Shown piece by piece: positions 34,370 to 44,166 of a DNA stretch of 64,000 nt. Numbering within the stretch: position 1 is the stretch's first letter; every line of letters starts with the position of its first letter. The stretch is from NCBI RefSeq assembly GCF_009833965.1, contig NZ_CP047165.1, positions 2,046,001 through 2,110,000 on the forward strand, read 5' to 3'. A program made the translations under genes and the position numbers. This DNA is from Pelistega ratti. GTDB taxonomy: Bacteria; Pseudomonadota; Gammaproteobacteria; Burkholderiales; Burkholderiaceae_B. The notes below the pieces were generated by a model. The model was not told the DNA's origin. It did not search any database and was given only the letters and a program-made list of their open reading frames with translations.

Positions 34370-34570
34370 TCGTGAGATTTTAGCCGATTTTGGGGTTTTC
34401 TTTGTTGGTTTTTGTGGAAAACCATAATATTTATTGGTGTGATGATGTTAATAGCATTTTGGGTTTTTCTGGTGTATAAAAAATATAAGGTTTGTTGAGA
34501 TGGTTGTTTATTTGAATGCCTATTTATCGATGTATAGGAGGTTATTGTTTAGATGGTTTATAGAGAAGAG

Positions 34571-34594
34571 AAACCCCTCTTTGGGAGGGGGTTA
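34571..34594 (-). terminator. Terminator after the cysteine-cluster gene
   Basis: On the reverse strand CCCCTC and GAGGGG pair around CCAAA and are followed by TTTCTCTT. It is 14 nt past the stop at 34608. Confidence 0.65.
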
Positions 34595-34607
34595 GTTTTA
34601 AAAAAAA

Positions 34608-34871
34608 TTATAATTTTTCACAAATTTCTAAGTTAATTTTTATAAAATCATCCCATTCATATTTATCAGAAAGATAGGTTTGATAGTATTGTTCCACTCG
34701 GCATACGAGAGGGCGTGTTTCATAAATATTACAAAGGTTGGTTGATTCATTAAAATAGTGGCAAATGCCATCGCCACGATCTAGAAACTTTGTTTGTTCG
34801 CTTAAATGAACGTTTCGACAGCATTTACCACAAGCATTACAAGGAAAAGGTTTATTTTTGACTGCATTCAT
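34608..34871 (-). CDS. YkgJ-family cysteine cluster protein, 87 aa
   Basis: The CxxCxxCC signature (CNACGKCC) is near residue 11, followed by CHYF, LCNIYETRPLVC and a late cysteine (EICEKL). These are hallmarks of the YkgJ/FliB-like zinc- or iron-chelating domain. The function of the family is not well known. The start lies inside the last codons of the 544-residue gene (20-bp overlap), indicating translational coupling and membership in the cassette. It has no signal peptide. Confidence 0.8.
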   Translation of the reverse strand: MNAVKNKPFPCNACGKCCRNVHLSEQTKFLDRGDGICHYFNESTNLCNIYETRPLVCRVEQYYQTYLSDKYEWDDFIKINLEICEKL

Positions 34872-36486
34872 GTTGCTTTTTTAAGAGCATTTTTTTAAAT
34901 GCACCTTCTTCATTAATATCATATGGTAGAGTGATATTTCTGGATTGAATTTCTTTTTTCAAAAAAGTATTTAATTCAAGTTCATCATTAATACTATTTA
35001 ATGTAAGAGCAAATTGTGTTAATTCATTAGCATTAAGATTAAATTCAATCTTTGTTAGTTCCTCTAAATAACGATCAAGCTCTGCATTTATTTTAATCAT
35101 TGCATCTTTCATTTGTTCGTATTTAGATTTTAAGCTATTTAAGAATGTCCAAATCTTATTAGCTATTTCACTATGTTCTAGAAAATAAGTAAAGCCAAGT
35201 GTAAGAATTCCAGATAACATACCACTAATAAATACTGAAATTTCTTCTCCAAATGGTATTACTAGGATGGTTGATAAATAGTTATTTACAATAGCACCAA
35301 CTGCAATCGATACTCCGACACTTAGTAGCTTGAATACTTCTTTGATTAAATCACCTTTTTTAAGATTTTGTGGATTAAAGAATAATAGTTTTCCAACTTG
35401 TACCAGGCTGTTCCACATCTCACGGATTAATTTACCCACTAGAGAGGTTGTGGTTTTAAAAATATTTATAAAGGTAGTAGAAAGACTTGATAAAATTCCT
35501 CCTAAAAAACCTTCTTTAAATTGGGTAAGTAAATCAGAGAACCGTTCTTTTAACCTGATAAAAATATTTGCTAATGTTTCTTTTATATGGGATAAAAATT
35601 CTTGAAAATTAAAACTTGTTTTACAATGTTCATATATTTTAGGGATTTGTGTTTTTAATTCAAACCAAACTTCAGCAAACACTAATCCTAATGCTTGGCG
35701 AACCCCCATTTTTACACCCTTATTTCCTGCGGCACTTGCTGTATTTTTGAAAAATTTGCTACTAGTGTAATAAGTATGATTTATTTCATAGTCAATAGCT
35801 GCTCGTGCTTTCTTATCTGCTGCTAACATTTTTTCTCGATCAGCAGACTCAAAGTTTTCAATATAGTCTTCAGCATTTTTAATTTTCTTTTCTAGTTCCT
35901 GTCGTTTATGCAATGGCATATCTTTTTGAGTAGTTAATTTTTCTTTTAATGTAATTAATTCATTCTTTTTATTTTCTACGCGAGCATCCATAGAGGCGAC
36001 AAAATCAGACATTTTAGAAGCATTTTTTGCTTTATTTAATGATTGATTTGTCATTGCAAAATTAATTTCTTGATTAGCTAAATCAGCACCATTTATTTCA
36101 GCTAAAACACGTCTAGGATCATTATGAATTTCATGTGCAGAAACAATATGATCAAGATTTTTCTTTTCATTAAGCTTAATTTTTTTATCGGTATATTTAT
36201 CTACAAGTTTACCTTGTTGTTGTAAATTATGTGATTCTCTATTTTTAGCAATGTAATTTTGATGGGTATGATATTCATGTGAATTATATTGCCCACGATT
36301 TTCATAACGAGATCTTTCTTCTTCTGTTGCATAGACTCCTTGAGCAACATTGTTTATCGTATCAACATCACCTCCTTTTTTATCGTTTAAGAGCATGAAG
36401 TCTAAATGAAAAGAAGTGGCAATATTTTGTAGTAAGGTTTTCTCTAGTTCTTGTACAAAATTAAACTCTGTTGTTGCTGTCGCCAT
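34852..36486 (-). CDS. Coiled-coil and membrane protein of unknown function, 544 aa
   Basis: I do not recognise this protein. Residues 1-230 are hydrophilic and rich in charged coiled-coil stretches (for example LITLKEKLTTQKD and KRQELEKKIKNAE). From about 255 there are amphipathic helices, and at about 390-450 two hydrophobic segments (SVGVSIAVGAIVNNYLS and ISVFISGMLSGILTLGF). A last coiled-coil segment ends the protein. AAGGAA precedes the ATG. It is the largest gene of the cassette and follows a terminator-like hairpin at 36508-36534. A membrane-anchored scaffold or pore component is possible; no motif proves it. Confidence 0.7.
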   Translation of the reverse strand: MATATTEFNFVQELEKTLLQNIATSFHLDFMLLNDKKGGDVDTINNVAQGVYATEEERSRYENRGQYNSHEYHTHQNYIAKNRESHNLQQQGKLVDKYTDKKIKLNEKKNLDHIVSAHEIHNDPRRVLAEINGADLANQEINFAMTNQSLNKAKNASKMSDFVASMDARVENKKNELITLKEKLTTQKDMPLHKRQELEKKIKNAEDYIENFESADREKMLAADKKARAAIDYEINHTYYTSSKFFKNTASAAGNKGVKMGVRQALGLVFAEVWFELKTQIPKIYEHCKTSFNFQEFLSHIKETLANIFIRLKERFSDLLTQFKEGFLGGILSSLSTTFINIFKTTTSLVGKLIREMWNSLVQVGKLLFFNPQNLKKGDLIKEVFKLLSVGVSIAVGAIVNNYLSTILVIPFGEEISVFISGMLSGILTLGFTYFLEHSEIANKIWTFLNSLKSKYEQMKDAMIKINAELDRYLEELTKIEFNLNANELTQFALTLNSINDELELNTFLKKEIQSRNITLPYDINEEGAFKKMLLKKQHECSQK

Positions 36487-36507
36487 AATATATTCCTTTT
36501 TAGATAA

Positions 36508-36534
36508 AAATAGCAGGAATAAGTCCTGCTATTT
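36508..36534 (-). terminator. Terminator-like hairpin inside the cassette
   Basis: Aaatagcagga and its perfect complement pair around 5 nt. On the reverse strand they are followed by TTTTTAT. It lies between the glycine-zipper gene and the 544-residue gene, whose start is 22 nt downstream, so it may attenuate the distal genes. Confidence 0.65.
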
Positions 36535-36554
36535 CTTTGTTGCTAAAGATACTA

Positions 36555-37622
36555 TTAATATTGAGTAGCTTCGTTTAATGCTGTTTGAATATCTGCATCA
36601 ATTTCTTTTTTATTGATAATTTGTTGCCCATTAGCATCTACTTCTAATTGAACAGCTTTATCCTTTAAGATAGGATTCCCATTACTATCTTTTTTAACTA
36701 CAAATAGTGGTGTATCAATAATATCAGTAAGAAGAGCGGCAACGAGATAACCATTTTCAACAATACGGAGGGTAGCATCCTCTAATTCCTCTATGTTACC
36801 ACCGTAACGAACTGATAAATCAACACGCTTTAAATCCTCAAAATAGTGGGTAAATTTAGCATAGATATGTTGTAGTGCCTTCTCAATTTTAGCTGCATAA
36901 AGATCAATTTCTTTGAGGTGTGTTGCTGCTAAAGCAAGTTTTTTTACTGCTCTGGCGGATTCAGTACGAAAATCTCTTGCATTCTCTAATGCTTCTTCTG
37001 CATGATTATCATAGGCAAAACCTGCTACGGCAATAATAGGTGCAGCTACAACACCACCTAAAATTGCTGCTCCGCCAGCCATACCTAATCCACCTGCTGA
37101 TAATGCACCGCCTCCAATAGCAGCCATTGTAGCATTATATGCAGCTGCTCCTGATAGGGCTGCAATAGGAGTTCCTGTTGATGCCGCAGCAAGTGCCATC
37201 ACACCCCCATAGGTAGCATAAGCGGCAGCGGCACCGGCAACACCAGCTCCTGCTAATTGTGTCATATAGGTTGTTGCTGAAAGAGATAAATCCGCTACTT
37301 TGTTAAGACGATATGGGGGGACGTTAATCTTAATGTCCTTATTAGAGGATTTAGCGAGTTTATTTAATAACTCTTCTGCTATTTTTTTAAACTCTGCAAA
37401 ATCTGTTCCGATTTTTAATTGTAATTTACCAAGGCTCTCTAGCTGTTGGTCAGTTTTTTTCTCTACCTTATCAAAATCAGATCGAGCTTTATCATAAGCT
37501 TGTTGGGCTTCTTTTGTAATATCCTCAGCAATTGATTTTTTCTGATAACCTTCATAACCTTTTTTGATACCTGCTACGGCAGCGGCAGCCGCAGCTGCTC
37601 CAAGAATAAATGGTAAAGGCAT
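36555..37622 (-). CDS. Glycine-zipper membrane protein, 355 aa
   Basis: It opens with a short hydrophobic Ala-rich segment (PFILGAAAAAAAVAGIKKGY). A coiled coil follows (about 30-95), then a long Ala/Gly-rich hydrophobic core at about 115-205 with GAGVAGAAAAY, ALAAASTGTPIAALSG, AAIGGGALSAGGLGMAGG and AAILGGVVAAPIIAVAG. A helical C-terminal region is less hydrophobic. This pattern resembles proteins sometimes labelled as chemotaxis proteins in databases without evidence. Gly/Ala zippers of this kind insert into membranes. It starts 29 bp after the YaaW-like gene. A membrane-inserting effector is my inference. Confidence 0.72.
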   Translation of the reverse strand: MPLPFILGAAAAAAAVAGIKKGYEGYQKKSIAEDITKEAQQAYDKARSDFDKVEKKTDQQLESLGKLQLKIGTDFAEFKKIAEELLNKLAKSSNKDIKINVPPYRLNKVADLSLSATTYMTQLAGAGVAGAAAAYATYGGVMALAAASTGTPIAALSGAAAYNATMAAIGGGALSAGGLGMAGGAAILGGVVAAPIIAVAGFAYDNHAEEALENARDFRTESARAVKKLALAATHLKEIDLYAAKIEKALQHIYAKFTHYFEDLKRVDLSVRYGGNIEELEDATLRIVENGYLVAALLTDIIDTPLFVVKKDSNGNPILKDKAVQLEVDANGQQIINKKEIDADIQTALNEATQY

Positions 37623-37651
37623 TTTAATCTCCTATTATTGATTCATAAAAA

Positions 37652-38338
37652 TTAACTGTACTTTCTTCTTAGCATAGCAATTTGAATAACAGCTGGTATT
37701 GTTACTCGTTTTGCAGGTCCTGCTAAATCACTTACTGTCCACATGGTGGTTAGTCCCCACCCTATTGGTCCTGTTGCAATACCTAATAAACGTCCTAATA
37801 AGGTTTGTTGTAGAAAAATAGGGGCAAAATTCATAAAAACGATAGGTGAAAAATTTACATTCAAAAGAGCTGCTTGTAAGCTAGCTGTTAATGCTTGATT
37901 ACTAAGATTTGTGGTAGGTAAATCTAAACTTTGTAATACTTCTTTCTTTTGTTCTTCAGATAAATCCTCAATGGCTTGTGTATAAACTTTATCTAATAAG
38001 TTTTTTTCAATAGCTTTAGTAGAAGAGCTTTTATTAAAGTTTACCTTCATATCTTCACATGCATCACAAAGAATTTCTTTATACAAGACTCCTTTACCTA
38101 ACCTAAAGATTGTTGCGATAGTATTTGCCCCAAATGTTTGAATTTCTGCGGCAATGTCTTGCCAGTATTTTTGATGGTCTGGATAATATCGCCTATAGTT
38201 TTGTGATGATGTGAGTTCTTCCGTATTACGAGTTTTTCCATCTTCAGGATCATGTGTCAATAAATATACAAGATCATTTAAATCTTCATTTGAGCAATAA
38301 GCTAAAAACTCAAGGTCTCTGTCCTCTCTATAAGCCAT
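37652..38338 (-). CDS. YaaW-like protein (DUF3944, UPF0174), 228 aa
   Basis: The N-terminal segment AYREDRDLEFLAYCSNEDLN matches the DUF3944 pattern, and the C-terminus RVTIPAVIQIAMLRRKYS is nearly the end of E. coli YaaW (RVTIPAVLQIACLRR). Between them, DIAAEIQTFGANTIATIFR and the hydrophobic Gly-rich FLQQTLLGRLLGIATGPIGWG also fit that family. The function of YaaW is not established. AAAGGAA precedes the ATG. It is the first gene of the four-gene cassette, about 210 bp downstream (in the transcription sense) of the poly-T tract. Confidence 0.82.
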   Translation of the reverse strand: MAYREDRDLEFLAYCSNEDLNDLVYLLTHDPEDGKTRNTEELTSSQNYRRYYPDHQKYWQDIAAEIQTFGANTIATIFRLGKGVLYKEILCDACEDMKVNFNKSSSTKAIEKNLLDKVYTQAIEDLSEEQKKEVLQSLDLPTTNLSNQALTASLQAALLNVNFSPIVFMNFAPIFLQQTLLGRLLGIATGPIGWGLTTMWTVSDLAGPAKRVTIPAVIQIAMLRRKYS

Positions 38339-38865
<527 letters not shown>

Positions 38866-39507
38866 CTAAACAACAGGATAAAATGGTTTTCCCCAATCAA
38901 TTTCATTCGGATTATCAATCATAATATTTAGTATTAGGGGCATAAGTGTTGTTAGAATAGCACAGGCATCTTTAACTTGTGAGCGATTAACTGAGCTATT
39001 AAATGTAGAGCTACCATGTAGAATTTGATTACGAAGCGTATAGAGTCGCTGACAAAGAATAATTAAGATTTTAGCAGTATCCTGATTGGAAAGAGCGTAT
39101 TGTAAGCTTTTTTTAGATTGTTTAAAATTGCTTAACCACTCTTGCTCAGTAATCTTATTATTATGAAAATCCCAAAAGGGTTGGAAAATATAGGGATTGT
39201 CTAATAGAGTACGGATGCTTCCTGAGAAAGTATGCCAAATAAGATGATAAATTTTTTGATTTTTATCAAACTCACAGATTCGAAAAATTAACTCATTAAA
39301 AGCAATTTTTTCACTTAATTTATCATCTATTTCTTGAGCATAAGCAGCATTAAAGGATACCCATAAGGCAATAAACTTAAAATCTAACTCTTCTGTTTGT
39401 TCAGCTTGTTTTAACCAGCTTAGTGAACGATGGATGCGTAAACGAAAATTATCTGAATAGTGTTCTTTATTTTGTTTATAAATTTGTTCAAGTTGGGTAA
39501 GTTGCAT
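38866..39507 (-). CDS. HEPN-domain protein (Apea-like), putative RNase
   Basis: 213 residues, mostly helical. The N-terminal part has LKQAEQTEELDFKFIALWVSFNAAYA, read here as a landmark around residues 32-57, which is typical of HEPN proteins annotated as Apea-like. Near residue 165 RNQILHG gives the R-x4-H motif that defines the HEPN RNase active site. HEPN RNases act in toxin-antitoxin, abortive infection and CRISPR systems. No MNT nucleotidyltransferase partner is adjacent. It lies upstream of the YaaW-like cassette, on the same strand, next to an IS30 element. Confidence 0.72.
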   Translation of the reverse strand: MQLTQLEQIYKQNKEHYSDNFRLRIHRSLSWLKQAEQTEELDFKFIALWVSFNAAYAQEIDDKLSEKIAFNELIFRICEFDKNQKIYHLIWHTFSGSIRTLLDNPYIFQPFWDFHNNKITEQEWLSNFKQSKKSLQYALSNQDTAKILIILCQRLYTLRNQILHGSSTFNSSVNRSQVKDACAILTTLMPLILNIMIDNPNEIDWGKPFYPVV

Positions 39508-39639
39508 AATTAACAGGAGAATGAGAAAGATTATAATTAAGTAAAAATTGAAAGCTAGTAATAATACATTTTATGATAAGGTGAGCAATAAGAGCTAACC
39601 ATCTATAAAGTAAGTGGTTAGCCTTTTATTATATTTTCA

Positions 39640-40723
39640 TTTGTCAAATTAAGCTAGACATTTTTAGACATTGCTTTTTTAAGAGCCTCTTTTAAATAGA
39701 TCAGAAAAACATGGTAAGGGGTTTTATAACCGAGAGATTTTCTAGGTATCATATTTATTTTATGAGCAATACTGGACAAATATGATTGAGTCATTCCTAT
39801 AAAATCAGTCTGTTTCGGTAGTCCATGTCGGCGTAATAATCCATTAGAATGTTCATTAAGTCCTCTCTGACTTGGACAGCCTGGATCGGCAAAGAAAATA
39901 TCAATATCATGTGCATTGGCAATCGTTTTCCAGTCAGAGAACTCTTTGCCTCTATCAAAGGTGATGGATTTAAATAAATGAGGTAGAGTTGAAAAAGAAG
40001 ACATCCAGCGACTGATTGCCTTTTGTATATCCTGTGCTTTTCGTCCATCTGTTTGTAAGGTAATAATAGCTTTAGACTTTCTCTCAACCAGTGTTATCAC
40101 CGCACTTTGATGATTTTTCCCTACGATAGTATCGCCTTCTAAATGTCCAAATTCTTCCTTAAACGCTGGATAATATTTGGCTCGTTCATGAATATCCCTT
40201 ACAAAAGCTTGTTTACCCCGTGTTTCTTTTCGTCCATTGGCTCTACGCTTACCTTTCCAAGGTAAATCCTCTTTCTTAAAAACACCTCGTTCCACTAAGC
40301 GATACAGTGTTCTCATTGAGCAAGAAATCTTCTTGCGATAGACCCCTTTAATCACATCAAAGTTCCACCCCTTATTCAAATGGGCTTGTATCAACGCTCT
40401 CTCTTTCTTGGATAATTGGGTTTTACCTTGTCCACAATAGCGCTTATTCTTTTTATACTGTTCATAATATTCATAGGCAGAGTAACCCTTTTTTAACATC
40501 GCTATTACCTTATAGATCGTTTGCCTTGACCGATTTAATGCCTTAGCTATATCTATTACTTTTTTACCAATTTGGTAATATGCCTCTATTATGACCAATT
40601 CATTTATGCTAAGATGTCTATAAGTCATTTATGTTAGTTCCTTTTCAGTAAATGTGGTGTTTATCTGAATCTAATGTAAATGGCTTTTTTGTCTAGTCTT
40701 TTGTCTAACTTAATTTTACAAAT
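39640..40723 (-). mobile_element. IS30-family insertion sequence, apparently intact
   Basis: The ends are inverted repeats of 22 bp with two mismatches: atttgtcaaattaagctaga at 39640 and the complement of 40702-40723. Inside each end TAGACA is repeated about 10-12 nt further in, a likely transposase-binding array. The element is about 1.08 kb with one transposase gene. No clear target-site duplication is visible, so the outer boundaries may shift by 1-2 nt. Confidence 0.85.
39654..40628 (-). CDS. IS30-family transposase
   Basis: 324 residues. An N-terminal helix-turn-helix (MTYRHLSINELVIIEAYYQI, then IAKALNRSRQTIYKV) precedes a DDE integrase core: Asp in LEGDTIVGK, Asp in TFDRGKEF and Glu in LNEHSNGLLRR. 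All three are present, so it may be active. AAGGAA precedes the ATG. Its stop lies just inside the left terminal repeat. The gene is on the same strand as the cassette downstream, so read-through into it is conceivable. Confidence 0.95.
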   Translation of the reverse strand: MTYRHLSINELVIIEAYYQIGKKVIDIAKALNRSRQTIYKVIAMLKKGYSAYEYYEQYKKNKRYCGQGKTQLSKKERALIQAHLNKGWNFDVIKGVYRKKISCSMRTLYRLVERGVFKKEDLPWKGKRRANGRKETRGKQAFVRDIHERAKYYPAFKEEFGHLEGDTIVGKNHQSAVITLVERKSKAIITLQTDGRKAQDIQKAISRWMSSFSTLPHLFKSITFDRGKEFSDWKTIANAHDIDIFFADPGCPSQRGLNEHSNGLLRRHGLPKQTDFIGMTQSYLSSIAHKINMIPRKSLGYKTPYHVFLIYLKEALKKAMSKNV

Positions 40724-40778
40724 TGGGTGTATTGATATCTTTCTCATTTAATAGAATATCTGTGCTATTTGAATAGGA

Positions 40779-41690
40779 TTAAGCACGACTATTACTTATT
40801 CGTTCTGATAGGAATGTTGATAATATATTGACTTTTGCACTATGTCGTAAATGGGGTGGATAGATAAGATAGATACCATCTTCCTCAAGAGTATCTGTTG
40901 GGGTAATTTGCCAGTCAATGAGAAGAGGGTGTAATTCTCCTGTTTGTAGGTAAGGCATGATGAGCCAGTCGGGCAGATGTGTGATTCCTTGTCCATTTAA
41001 TGCACTAGAAAGTAAAATATGAACGCTATTTGTACTGAGTGAACTATTTATTGGTATAAATTCACTTTTGCCCTTTTGTCGGAAAAACCATTTAGGAGCA
41101 TAGCCGTGATAAATATAAGGTAAACAGCGGTGATTCGTTAAATCAGATGGTGTTTTAGGGATACCGTATTGTGAGAGATAGTCTGGGGAGGCGACTAAGA
41201 GACGTTTTTGTGTGGTGAGTTTCTTGGCAATGAGCCTATCATCTGCTACTCTTCCTAGGCGAATGCCTATATCAAAGCCTTCTGTTATAAGATCAATAAA
41301 TGTATCTGTTACTAAGGCTTCTAATTCAATTTTTGGGTATTGTTGGGAAAATTCGATGATTAATGTACTTAATTTACTATTCCCATAATCGATTGGAAAG
41401 GTGATGCGTAGTTTACCTTGTGGCTCTGCTTGTTCGTTTTGTAATGATTGATTGGCATCAGCTAAGTCCGCTAGAATAGGGCGTATTTTAGTGAGATAAC
41501 GTTCTCCTGCTGCTGTGAGGGTGAGTTTACGTGTAGAGCGTGTAAATAGTGTAACACCAAGATGATTTTCTAGTGTATCAATTTGGCGAGTGACTGAGGA
41601 TACGGCAATGCCCATCAGTCGAGCTGTCGCAGTAAAACTACCATTATGAGCAATATGTTGAAAAATTGTAAGGGCATGAAAATAGTCCAT
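40779..41690 (-). CDS. LysR-family transcriptional regulator
   Basis: 303 residues. The winged HTH occupies the first 60 residues (FQHIAHNGSFTATARLMGIA, SSVTRQIDTLENHLGVTLF). The effector domain has YGNSKLSTLIIEFSQQYPKI and FDIGIRLG. It is divergent from the luciferase-like oxidoreductase gene at 41801 across 110 bp, which makes it the likely regulator of that gene. The inducer is unknown. Confidence 0.93.
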   Translation of the reverse strand: MDYFHALTIFQHIAHNGSFTATARLMGIAVSSVTRQIDTLENHLGVTLFTRSTRKLTLTAAGERYLTKIRPILADLADANQSLQNEQAEPQGKLRITFPIDYGNSKLSTLIIEFSQQYPKIELEALVTDTFIDLITEGFDIGIRLGRVADDRLIAKKLTTQKRLLVASPDYLSQYGIPKTPSDLTNHRCLPYIYHGYAPKWFFRQKGKSEFIPINSSLSTNSVHILLSSALNGQGITHLPDWLIMPYLQTGELHPLLIDWQITPTDTLEEDGIYLIYPPHLRHSAKVNILSTFLSERISNSRA

Positions 41691-41800
41691 TTTTATTCCT
41701 TTTATTATTGCGTTTTTTGCAAAACTATTTGTATTTTAAAACATATTATCATTTTAAATAATAAGAAATATAATATCTTCTATTGAAAAGGAGTACTAAG
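41691..41800. promoter_or_regulatory. Divergent promoter region of lysR and the LLM oxidoreductase
   Basis: 110 bp of AT-rich sequence. A TATAAT at 41769-41774 has a weak TTATCA 17 bp upstream and would serve the rightward gene. Direct AT-rich repeats (attttaaaa/attttaaat) between the genes could be LysR contacts. Confidence 0.4.
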
Positions 41801-42832
41801 ATGAAAAATGTACCAAATTTATCGATTTTAGGAAAAGACGATAGCCATTTATTTAATAATGCTGAAAGGGTAGCATCTAAAACAGATCTTTCACCTGACC
41901 TTGCTGATCATCGTGCTTTTTCTCGTGTGTTTCAACGTGATAAGCTTACCTTTGGGTTAATTGCACCATTTAAAGGGTATGCAGATGTGCCTATTCCAAG
42001 TATTGAAGACTTAGGGGATATAGCAGTATTAGCCGATCAATTAGGTTTTGCGGCATTATGGTTACGTGATGTACCTTTTTATGATCCAAACTTTGGTGAT
42101 GTCGGGCAAGGATTAGATCCGTTTGTATCGCTAGGCTATTTAGCGGCGAAAACAAAAGATATTGCTTTGGGTACAGCAGGGCTTGTTTCTCCTTTGCGTG
42201 AGCCTATTCATATCGCTAAAGCAGCAGCGAGTACAGATGTTTTAACAAATGGTCGGTTTATTTTGGGTTTATCGAGTGGTGATCGTCCTGTGGAGTATCC
42301 TGCATTTAAAGCAGATTTTGAGAATAGAGCAGAGCGTTTCCGTGAAAGCTGGGAAATGATAGATACCTTATTACGGAATGACTTTCCCCGTTTTAAAGGA
42401 AATCACTATGGGGATTTACAAGGGAATATTGATTTTATTCCTAAAATTAAACACCGCCTACCAATGGTGGCGATAGGACGTGCTAGACAAGAATTGAGTT
42501 GGTTAGCCAATCGTGCGGATGCGTGGATTTGGCATGGTGTTGATCCTAAAGATACCGCTAAAATAGTGAACACTTTATCGACTCTCAATCAAGATGGTAC
42601 ATGGCATCCTTTTGGCTATGCTAATTTTATTGATTTGTCTGAGGATAGAAATGAGCCTGTGCGTCTTTTTAATAAGATTTATTTGCGAGGTGGTGCAAAT
42701 GGTTTGAGAGAGTTCTATCAAGAGCAAAAAGCACAAGGTTTGGCTCATGTAACGCTTAACCTAAAACCTACGCGTAGAGGTAGTGTAGAGGTATTGCAAG
42801 AGCTAGCGGAAGAAGTGGTAGGGAAAGTGTAG
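41801..42832 (+). CDS. Luciferase-like (LLM class) flavin oxidoreductase
   Basis: 343 residues from the ATG that has AAGGAG 7 nt upstream. The fold is a TIM barrel of the bacterial-luciferase superfamily, with LADQLGFAALWLRDVP, DPFVSLGYLAAKTKDIALGT, GLVSPLREPIHIAK and GRFILGLSSGDRPVEY. It resembles the LLM subgroup TIGR03571. These use FMNH2 or F420; in this lineage FMN is likely. The substrate is unknown. Probably controlled by the divergent LysR protein. Confidence 0.88.
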   Translation: MKNVPNLSILGKDDSHLFNNAERVASKTDLSPDLADHRAFSRVFQRDKLTFGLIAPFKGYADVPIPSIEDLGDIAVLADQLGFAALWLRDVPFYDPNFGDVGQGLDPFVSLGYLAAKTKDIALGTAGLVSPLREPIHIAKAAASTDVLTNGRFILGLSSGDRPVEYPAFKADFENRAERFRESWEMIDTLLRNDFPRFKGNHYGDLQGNIDFIPKIKHRLPMVAIGRARQELSWLANRADAWIWHGVDPKDTAKIVNTLSTLNQDGTWHPFGYANFIDLSEDRNEPVRLFNKIYLRGGANGLREFYQEQKAQGLAHVTLNLKPTRRGSVEVLQELAEEVVGKV

Positions 42833-42883
42833 TGGTTGGATTGTTAATCCCTATCTATTAGCATATTATAGCTATTATAGTAA

Positions 42884-42976
42884 AAAGCACGGCAAAATAG
42901 TGTTAAGTCGATTAAGTTGTTTCTCGCTATGCTTGAAAAACTCGTTTGATTAATCACTATTTTCTGTGTTTTTTGC
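42884..42976. repeat. Dispersed intergenic repeat, copy A
   Basis: About 90 nt that align with 62725-62812. Shared blocks include aaagcacg, tgtt-agtcg, agttg, ctcgct, aaaactcg and tctgt-ttttt. Copies differ by small indels. Confidence 0.65.
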
Positions 42977-43092
42977 TACTAATCAGATAAATGAAATAAG
43001 TAAAGTAGAATGCTCTATTACCGTAGGTTAAATATGAATTATTTGAGTCTTTATAAATTTTGAGAAAAGGAAAACAATACTGAATCATATCT

Positions 43093-43111
43093 TATAGTGA
43101 TTATCACTATA
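43093..43111. promoter_or_regulatory. Fur-box-like 19-bp palindrome
   Basis: Tatagtgattatcactata matches the 19-bp Fur consensus (GATAATGATAATCATTATC) at 14 positions and is itself a perfect 8-bp inverted repeat. It lies about 230 bp before ctaG. AT-rich background makes this tentative. Confidence 0.35.
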
Positions 43112-43344
43112 CAAAATATATTTCTAAAATCAATCCTTAAAAATCTCCTTATCAAATATTAACTACATCTCCCTCATTTGATTTTTGTTAAAAAATATTT
43201 AAAAATAATTCTTTTTGTGGTTTAATTGTAAAAGAATTTACCGTACTATTATCAGATAGACTTTGTATTCTGATAAAATAACCCCTTTAAGTAAGAGAAT
43301 AAAAATAACTCAGTTGTTTTTAATATGAGTAGATAAGGATTTTT

Positions 43345-44166
43345 ATGGATTTAACGCTCGCACAGTGGCTCACACCTTGGGAGTTTTCCCCTACACTGAT
43401 GATTTGTTTTATAGTGAGTGCTTATCTATTTATTAAAGGCACATTGACTAGGCATGTGAGCTTCACTCGTCAGTTATTATTCTGGTCAGGTTGGGTGATG
43501 CTTTATTTATCTTTACATACCCATGTTGATTATTTTGCTGAAAGGGTATTTTTTGTTCATCGTGCTCAGCACGTTTTTTTACACCATTTAGCACCTCTAT
43601 TAGTGATGGCAGCCTATCCGGGTCAGGTGATGCGTGTAGGGATGCCTCGTTCTTGGCGAGTGGCGTTACGGCGGTTTTTGGCGAGTAGAGTAGGGCAGAT
43701 TGTAGAGCGTATTTGTACGGATAAATACTTTGTTCCTTTCCTTTTTGTCTTTTTAGTGTTGGTATGGTTGATACCAACGGTTCAATTTTATTCTATGCTG
43801 GATATTTACCTTTACCGCTTAATGAATTGGTCGGTAGTGGTCAGTGGTTTTATGTATTGGAATTTGGTGCTAGATAGACGTCCCTCTAAACCAGCGGCTA
43901 TGTCGCCAAGAGGAAGAATTTTATCCCCTATCTTTACGATGATTCCACAAATTATTGCCGGTATTTATATTGCACTTGCCCCTAATGATTTGTACCCTTT
44001 ATTTGATTTATGCGGAAGAGCCTTACCGATTTCTGCGAGTAAAGATCAGACTTTTGGTGGAATTATTATGTGGGTGCCTGCGGCAATTGTTGAAAGTTTT
44101 GGTATTTTGGTGGCATTGTCTAATTGGATGCGATTAGCGGCAAAAGGTCGTTTAGCAAAAAGATAA
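43345..44166 (+). CDS. ctaG: CtaG-type cytochrome c oxidase assembly protein
   Basis: 273 residues, an integral membrane protein of the caa3-type CtaG family (Caa3_CtaG). It has about six hydrophobic helices. The conserved histidine-rich region FVHRAQHVFLHHLAPLLVM could bind copper, and LFDLCGRALPISASKDQTFGG is another family block. It is thought to help deliver copper to terminal oxidases. It stands alone here with no oxidase gene near. Confidence 0.88.
   Translation: MDLTLAQWLTPWEFSPTLMICFIVSAYLFIKGTLTRHVSFTRQLLFWSGWVMLYLSLHTHVDYFAERVFFVHRAQHVFLHHLAPLLVMAAYPGQVMRVGMPRSWRVALRRFLASRVGQIVERICTDKYFVPFLFVFLVLVWLIPTVQFYSMLDIYLYRLMNWSVVVSGFMYWNLVLDRRPSKPAAMSPRGRILSPIFTMIPQIIAGIYIALAPNDLYPLFDLCGRALPISASKDQTFGGIIMWVPAAIVESFGILVALSNWMRLAAKGRLAKR

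Follow-up and report, generated by a model that had tools for sequence, protein, structure and literature searches.

Do four closely spaced genes of Pelistega ratti form a single anti-phage operon, or do they belong to two defence units that lie side by side? The question is raised by a 64,000-nucleotide (nt) stretch of DNA (NZ_CP047165.1, positions 2,046,001-2,110,000; "the window" in the following), in which these genes occupy positions 38338-34608 of the minus strand. They encode JukA, a protein with an Ala/Gly zipper, a protein of 544 amino acids (aa) that likely contains an HNH-like domain, and a YkgJ-type cysteine-cluster protein. With reservations, we lean towards the first answer: judged from the sequence, the island that holds these genes may well carry one anti-phage operon, in which JukA would be the sensor that steers a membrane-anchored nuclease module. 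The comparison with other genomes suggests that the new element is the joining of JukA, itself an already published sensor of jumbo-phage infection, to a widespread and unstudied three-gene module.

Genes of the proposed operon

The genes follow each other on one strand in the order JukA, zipper, 544-aa gene and cysteine-cluster gene, with spacings of 29 nt and 68 nt and a final overlap of 20 nt. This confirms an original prediction, made by reading the window, of four same-strand genes with short gaps or overlap. The first gene product (37652-38338, 228 aa), described there as a YaaW/DUF3944 protein, is JukA: it matches the PADLOC JukA model with E = 6.4e-57, and both DUF3944 (50.8 bits) and Ubiq_cyt_C_chap (26 bits) score over the Pfam cut-offs. 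The NCBIfam model NF007593 ("acidic protein MsyB") also matches it (E = 8e-35, below the cut-off of that model), and plasmid YaaW genes carry this name, which looks misleading. According to a review (PMC13282480), JukA senses early proteins of the phage inside the infection vesicle and can act through a variety of effectors, among them JukB, which forms tetrameric pores in that vesicle. Going by this review, the earlier statement that YaaW lacks a settled function no longer holds for JukA.

The second gene encodes the zipper protein (36555-37622, 355 aa), a coiled-coil protein characterised by its family alignment and hydropathy, which we propose as the membrane partner. It matches the PADLOC defence-candidate model PDC-M09A (E = 4.4e-22). 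The 544-aa protein (34852-36486), the proposed membrane-anchored nuclease effector, matches the candidate model PDC-M40B (E = 1.7e-37), and scanned relatives of the two proteins match the same two models. These matches and the JukA identity bear out the earlier idea of a defence device with YaaW as its control subunit. The last protein (34608-34871, 87 aa, eight Cys) contains the CxxCxxCC cluster and reaches 32.5 bits against PF03692, whose cut-off is 23, so that its assignment as YkgJ-type also stands. No Pfam match in the window proteins supported the labels "chemotaxis protein", "cobalamin adenosyltransferase", "ATPase" or "DNA repair protein" that the sources give. A housekeeping membrane protein was likewise rejected as an explanation, as the zipper and 544-aa proteins of the window have no match to one over the cut-off; the transporter-family matches of some relatives (below) were taken as a likeness of membrane segments.

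A widespread three-gene module

The last three genes form a unit of their own. In a scan of named genomes, 138 proteins proved to be related to the 544-aa protein, and the best 80 were used for a survey of the surrounding genes. These 80 loci span Pseudomonadota, Bacillota, spirochaetes, Fibrobacter and Desulfovibrio. By a search of open reading frames (ORFs), the zipper gene is present in 79 of them, the cysteine-cluster gene in 75 and all three genes in 74; at one locus (L077) the cysteine-cluster gene was found by tblastn alone. Every complete module (74/74) lies on a single strand and within 6.5 kilobases (kb). Their genes run zipper-HNH-YkgJ in 59 cases, as in the window, HNH-YkgJ-zipper in 13 and HNH-zipper-YkgJ in two. 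The genes are therefore not merely found singly, and of the predicted cassette it is three genes, rather than four, that make up the conserved unit. Source labels such as "chemotaxis protein", "cobalamin adenosyltransferase" and "YkgJ" hide this module. Among the titles and abstracts listed in our literature searches, none describes it, and a term search of the DefensePredictor main text (PMC13092281) gave no mention of it.

The module is often preceded by a regulator gene. A scan of 33 chosen upstream ORFs (longer and on the same strand; 31 from the 80 loci and two from E. coli) detected a WYL domain in 30. According to a study of WYL regulators of the BrxR family, roughly one in two of these is encoded near a known defence system (PMC9122601).

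A second recurrent feature lies between the zipper and HNH genes, where the window has a hairpin (36508-36534, minus strand) that is possibly an attenuator or a stabiliser of the mRNA 3' end. Directly downstream of the zipper stop codon, a stretch of 45 nt holds a stem of at least 7 pairs in 47 of 65 loci, versus 13 of 65 for a control stretch of equal length ahead of the start codon; a few of these loci are near-identical (e.g. L006 and L059). The mean folding z-score of the spacers is -2.65 versus -0.08 for the control, and values below -2 occur in 40/65 versus 4/63. Between distant loci the hairpin sequence differs, i.e. the structure is kept without sequence conservation. Of the 59 spacers with a stem of at least 6 pairs, 26 have a T-rich tail. 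Such a hairpin within the operon could hold expression of the putative nuclease below that of the zipper protein.

On a Paraclostridium plasmid (L195, 2398-4725), a 213-aa "glycine zipper family protein" stands directly before a divergent gene of the HNH family, near a restriction gene of the Sau3AI type. This locus suggests that different partners can take the place upstream of the HNH gene.

A likely HNH-like domain in the 544-aa protein

The original prediction described the 544-aa protein as a coiled-coil protein with two hydrophobic segments and overlooked its N-terminal part, which likely contains an HNH-like domain. Across 30 aligned sequences from several phyla and a jumbo phage, the window's included, the residues D112, H113, N142 and N151 are invariant (30/30) and stand in the order DH...N...N, as in HNH nucleases. 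Invariance over phyla is as expected for catalysis. The AlphaFold2 model, in which numbering is one lower than in the 544-aa protein, is confident over about residues 61-230 and has, at high predicted local distance difference test (pLDDT) values, strands at 108-112 and 142-146 and a helix at 147-153. The DH thus coincides with the first strand, the first N immediately precedes the second strand, and the second N falls in the helix. When residues 60-160 were compared with GmrSD_C by hhalign, P was 9.8e-4 versus 0.59 for a control slice, and H113, N142 and N151 aligned with HNH residues. One family member (L013) matches the region 652-754 of SspE with E = 5.3e-4. In a Pfam scan of 30 relatives, HNH_4 was matched by six (best E = 0.047), GmrSD_C by five (0.042) and GH-E by two, with best E-values spanning 0.04-0.38.

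Family-averaged hydropathy places the two predicted hydrophobic segments at about 380-412 and 406-438 and adds a weaker one at about 326-346. In L013 (8001-9566), the coiled-coil part has a sub-threshold match to the SLATT effector domain with two transmembrane segments (PF18169, E = 0.022). No relative with a solved structure was significant by sequence.

JukA beside each half of the module

Elsewhere, JukA is found with parts of the module in two arrangements, both on plasmids. Plasmids of Raoultella, Citrobacter and Enterobacter, which are 98% alike and represent one lineage, carry a WYL gene, a 404-aa JukA with a C-terminal extension and a 528-aa HNH relative, without a zipper gene. On Pseudomonas and Photobacterium plasmids, a homologue of this extension is encoded as a separate protein of 179-189 aa immediately ahead of the HNH gene (E = 4e-11 among 205 sequences, versus 0.079 as the best of 200 shuffles). 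This apparent fusion of JukA with the small partner ties JukA to the HNH protein. A comparison of the zipper protein, JukA and the small plasmid partner gave no support for their being homologues of each other. A plasmid of Methylomonas DH-1 encodes a JukA with 51% identity to that of the window and, 130 nt further on, a 157-aa zipper-core protein (hidden Markov model E = 2.7e-13, a match in which composition bias makes up 36 of 46 bits). A JukA relative (P0253) and a zipper relative (P0127) come from contigs of equal length (3,862), which hints at one more JukA-zipper locus; the coincidence may be due to chance, and we do not count it.

JukA was found on 29 plasmid records and two records of the phage collection. 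Among the 11 whose surroundings were examined, three (the one lineage) have an HNH relative, one has a zipper core and seven have neither. In E. coli, the WYL-JukA-HNH plasmid operon was found in none of 5,426 genomes at 80% coverage; partial matches occur in 11 genomes, covering 9% of the query among the matches listed.

The 23 JukA loci examined, the window's included, hold varied partners, and JukA is therefore best seen as a modular sensor. A HEPN gene lies within four ORFs of JukA in four of them (the window, L148, L156 and L158). Four loci (L139, L148, L156 and L158) have a related WYL-type gene, and 13 have a small gene of the helix-turn-helix (HTH) type; the latter fall into two clusters, and the one member scanned per cluster is HTH_3. 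GTPases or a PDC-M09B-like gene are present in some. JukA and HEPN may form a partnership of their own. Another genome of the genus (G006; L158, 641-9405) groups JukA and HEPN with a WYL regulator and three dynamin-like GTPases in a single block, which makes a Juk/Eleos-like combination. Another effector set is seen in G541 (L139, 3805-8319), where a WYL gene, a 107-aa protein and JukA are followed by PDC-M09B-like and BnzA-like genes. Two plasmid proteins of 599 and 589 aa (L190, 4959-6758, and L191, 4956-6725) combine an N-terminal JukA domain with a long C-terminal region.

One operon or two modules

The main rival of a single operon is that two independent defence modules lie side by side, JukA (with HEPN or alone) and the zipper/HNH/cysteine-cluster module. 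We take this seriously, though as the less probable of the two. The flanks of the 80 module loci were searched for JukA over up to 8 kb (shorter where a contig ended), and 79 of them are without it. The one hit besides the window is Gilliamella App6-5, where JukA follows 124 nt after the cysteine-cluster gene. The four-gene set is thus rare, and the prediction of a four-gene cassette does not describe a standard arrangement. Among 140 genomes of one family, Pasteurellaceae-like by their counts of uptake sequences, 16 have JukA, six the 544 family and two both (G440 and G526), and JukA and the 544 family are nowhere adjacent; in one of the two genomes the genes are 17 kb apart, in the other on different contigs. 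None of the 19 Pasteurellaceae-like JukA regions that were fetched holds the three-gene module. Independence is further favoured by the WYL regulator that the module often has for itself, by the HEPN and HTH-type neighbours that JukA has elsewhere and by the fact that defence genes cluster in islands. However, in the window the gap between JukA and zipper is 29 nt on one strand, no WYL domain was matched among the eight island proteins scanned, and on unrelated plasmids JukA adjoins either a zipper-core protein or, with the small partner fused to it, an HNH relative.

Besides the rarity of JukA near the module, the lack of adjacency in the Pasteurellaceae-like genomes and the compositional share of the Methylomonas match, several results count against a JukA-steered, membrane-anchored nuclease. 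The hhalign match to GmrSD_C is weak, at a probability of 22%. A search of 120 family members with the GmrSD_C model brought no significant match (best E = 0.17), the window's 544-aa protein has no match to a Pfam HNH family at E up to 1, and among 70 scanned members the best E-value for an HNH family was 0.024 (GmrSD_C, with matches in 3/40). The match to SspE was obtained with one out of three family members scanned with PADLOC. BPD_transp_1, a membrane family of transporters, was matched by 10 of 30 members with a best E-value of 4.8e-6, which presumably reflects a likeness of membrane segments. Foldseek returned no significant match for the 544-aa or the zipper model, and the zipper core was modelled at pLDDT below 50. 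Finally, the zipper protein was considered as a JukB and rejected: the JukB model (PDLC04114) has no match at E up to 1 to the zipper, HNH or cysteine-cluster protein.

The two structural results also bear on the earlier suggestion of a pore-forming device. As neither model has a significant Foldseek match and confidence in the modelled zipper core is low, and as VIA-align gave nothing above noise for the models, the pore reading lacks structural support and is unproven. An abortive device that damages membranes without nuclease activity, in which the zipper and the membrane segments depolarise the host on infection while the HNH-like domain has degenerated into a scaffold for binding, appears improbable to us, given that the HNH residues are invariant over phyla.

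The preferred reading, a single operon with JukA as sensor, is favoured by the identity of JukA, the tight layout with a terminator-like site at its end, the conserved module with its WYL regulators, the HNH-like residues, the two plasmid arrangements, the Gilliamella locus and the carriage of the 544 family on plasmids, in jumbo phages and next to an integrase. For this reading we infer recruitment, membrane breach, DNA cleavage, the phage target and the role of the cysteine-cluster protein as follows. JukA would bind an early phage protein at the infection-associated membrane, as published for Juk, and would there recruit or release the zipper protein and the coiled-coil/HNH protein. By analogy, it would in this way bring the zipper/HNH module to the phage-associated membrane. 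The zipper protein may open or perturb the membrane, the anchored HNH domain would cut DNA behind it, and the cysteine-cluster protein might supply or guard a metal centre. Jumbo phages shield their DNA behind membranes, and many DNA-cutting defences therefore fail. A JukA-guided, membrane-anchored nuclease, if true, would be a direct answer to this shield. A bolder version, which we consider rather unlikely, is a second class of Juk immunity, in which JukA delivers a membrane-anchored HNH nuclease, and not only a pore, to the vesicle that hides the DNA of nucleus-forming jumbo phages, where this DNA would be cut within the membrane that protects it; together with other sensors and under WYL regulators, the module would then be a defence system that crosses phyla.

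The island and its mobility

The operon lies in an inserted island (34370-43344) which also contains genes for a HEPN-like protein, an IS30 transposase, a LysR regulator and a luciferase-like monooxygenase, as judged from an empty site, the guanine-cytosine content and Pfam names. In five of six genomes of the same genus (G001, G003, G004, G005 and G006), dusB adjoins the homologue of the window's CtaG gene (43345-44166); in the sixth (G002), this neighbour was not within the fetched flank. In the window, the two genes are about 9 kb apart, and the guanine-cytosine content in between is 33%, versus 41% and 39% in the flanks. Since five of the six genomes show the empty site, the region is an accessory island, as had been proposed.

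The IS30 and the HEPN gene on which that proposal drew are both present. The HEPN-like protein (38866-39507, minus strand) has the Rx4H motif (RNQILH), which is kept in 4/4 homologues, the window's included; its Pfam match (E = 0.0053) is below the cut-off. A gap of 527 nt separates its gene from JukA, and its membership in the operon is uncertain. A terminator-like stem-loop (34574-34590, minus strand) lies 3' of the cysteine-cluster gene; the window has 8 such sites versus 2.5 expected. Promoter-like sites are at chance level (27 versus 26 expected), and we therefore do not claim a promoter. At 38547-38577, 208 nt upstream of the JukA start, there is a poly-T tract of 31 nt, the only A/T run of at least 12 in the window. 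It is either a possible phase-variation tract or a spot sensitive to assembly.

The 544 family is mobile. Of 72,556 plasmid records, 69 carry it, including six from Escherichia, and it is also present in four Aeromonas jumbo phages (LAh10, D3, D6 and D9; 7 records). LAh10 (L089, 3973-6569) has the zipper and HNH pair, perhaps as a means to exclude rival phages, and D3, D6 and D9 carry the HNH gene. Scans of viral contigs with the zipper-family alignment A1 and with alignment A2 found no relatives, although the phage collection had given matches. A relative of the 544-aa gene is present in 376 of 5,426 complete E. coli genomes (about 7%), at 410 places that all lie on the chromosome. A set of regulator, zipper, HNH and YkgJ genes abuts an integrase at tRNA-Sec in E. 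coli AH21, whereas ETEC1716 has a frameshift in its zipper gene and no annotated YkgJ. In a species-level sample of the class, JukA was found in three of 369 genomes and the 544 family also in three, the window's own genome being included in both counts and one weak partial match in the latter. Its presence on plasmids and in jumbo phages would fit a function in the competition or maintenance of mobile elements (superinfection exclusion or plasmid rivalry) instead of host defence, but the chromosomal location of all copies in the E. coli genome set and the partnership with JukA, which points to phage defence, make this very improbable.

Comparison with known systems

Some JukA relatives lie near dynamin-like or LeoBC-like GTPases, and the zipper family has marginal matches to LeoBC, in which the locus resembles Eleos (LeoA/LeoBC) and other dynamin-like systems; in contrast to these, the window cassette has no GTPase. 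With HNH nucleases of the GmrSD and SspE type, the 544 family shares the DH...N...N pattern that aligns with GmrSD_C and, in L013, the match to the SspE region. However, the domain in the window is fused to a coiled coil and membrane segments, its Pfam HNH scores are not significant, and the Pfam scan of the protein found neither an NTPase domain nor one that reads modifications.

The zipper and 544-aa proteins correspond to the candidates PDC-M09A and PDC-M40B, for which our literature search found no paper naming PDC-M09 or PDC-M40. The window has both in one module, together with a cysteine-cluster protein and JukA, and the PDC-M09B model, which PADLOC contains, has no match among the five proteins scanned. 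In comparison with Juk (JukA-JukB), the putative partners in the window are zipper, HNH and cysteine-cluster proteins without a match to JukB, but in both cases JukA is the first gene of a short operon and is followed by a partner proposed to act at the membrane.

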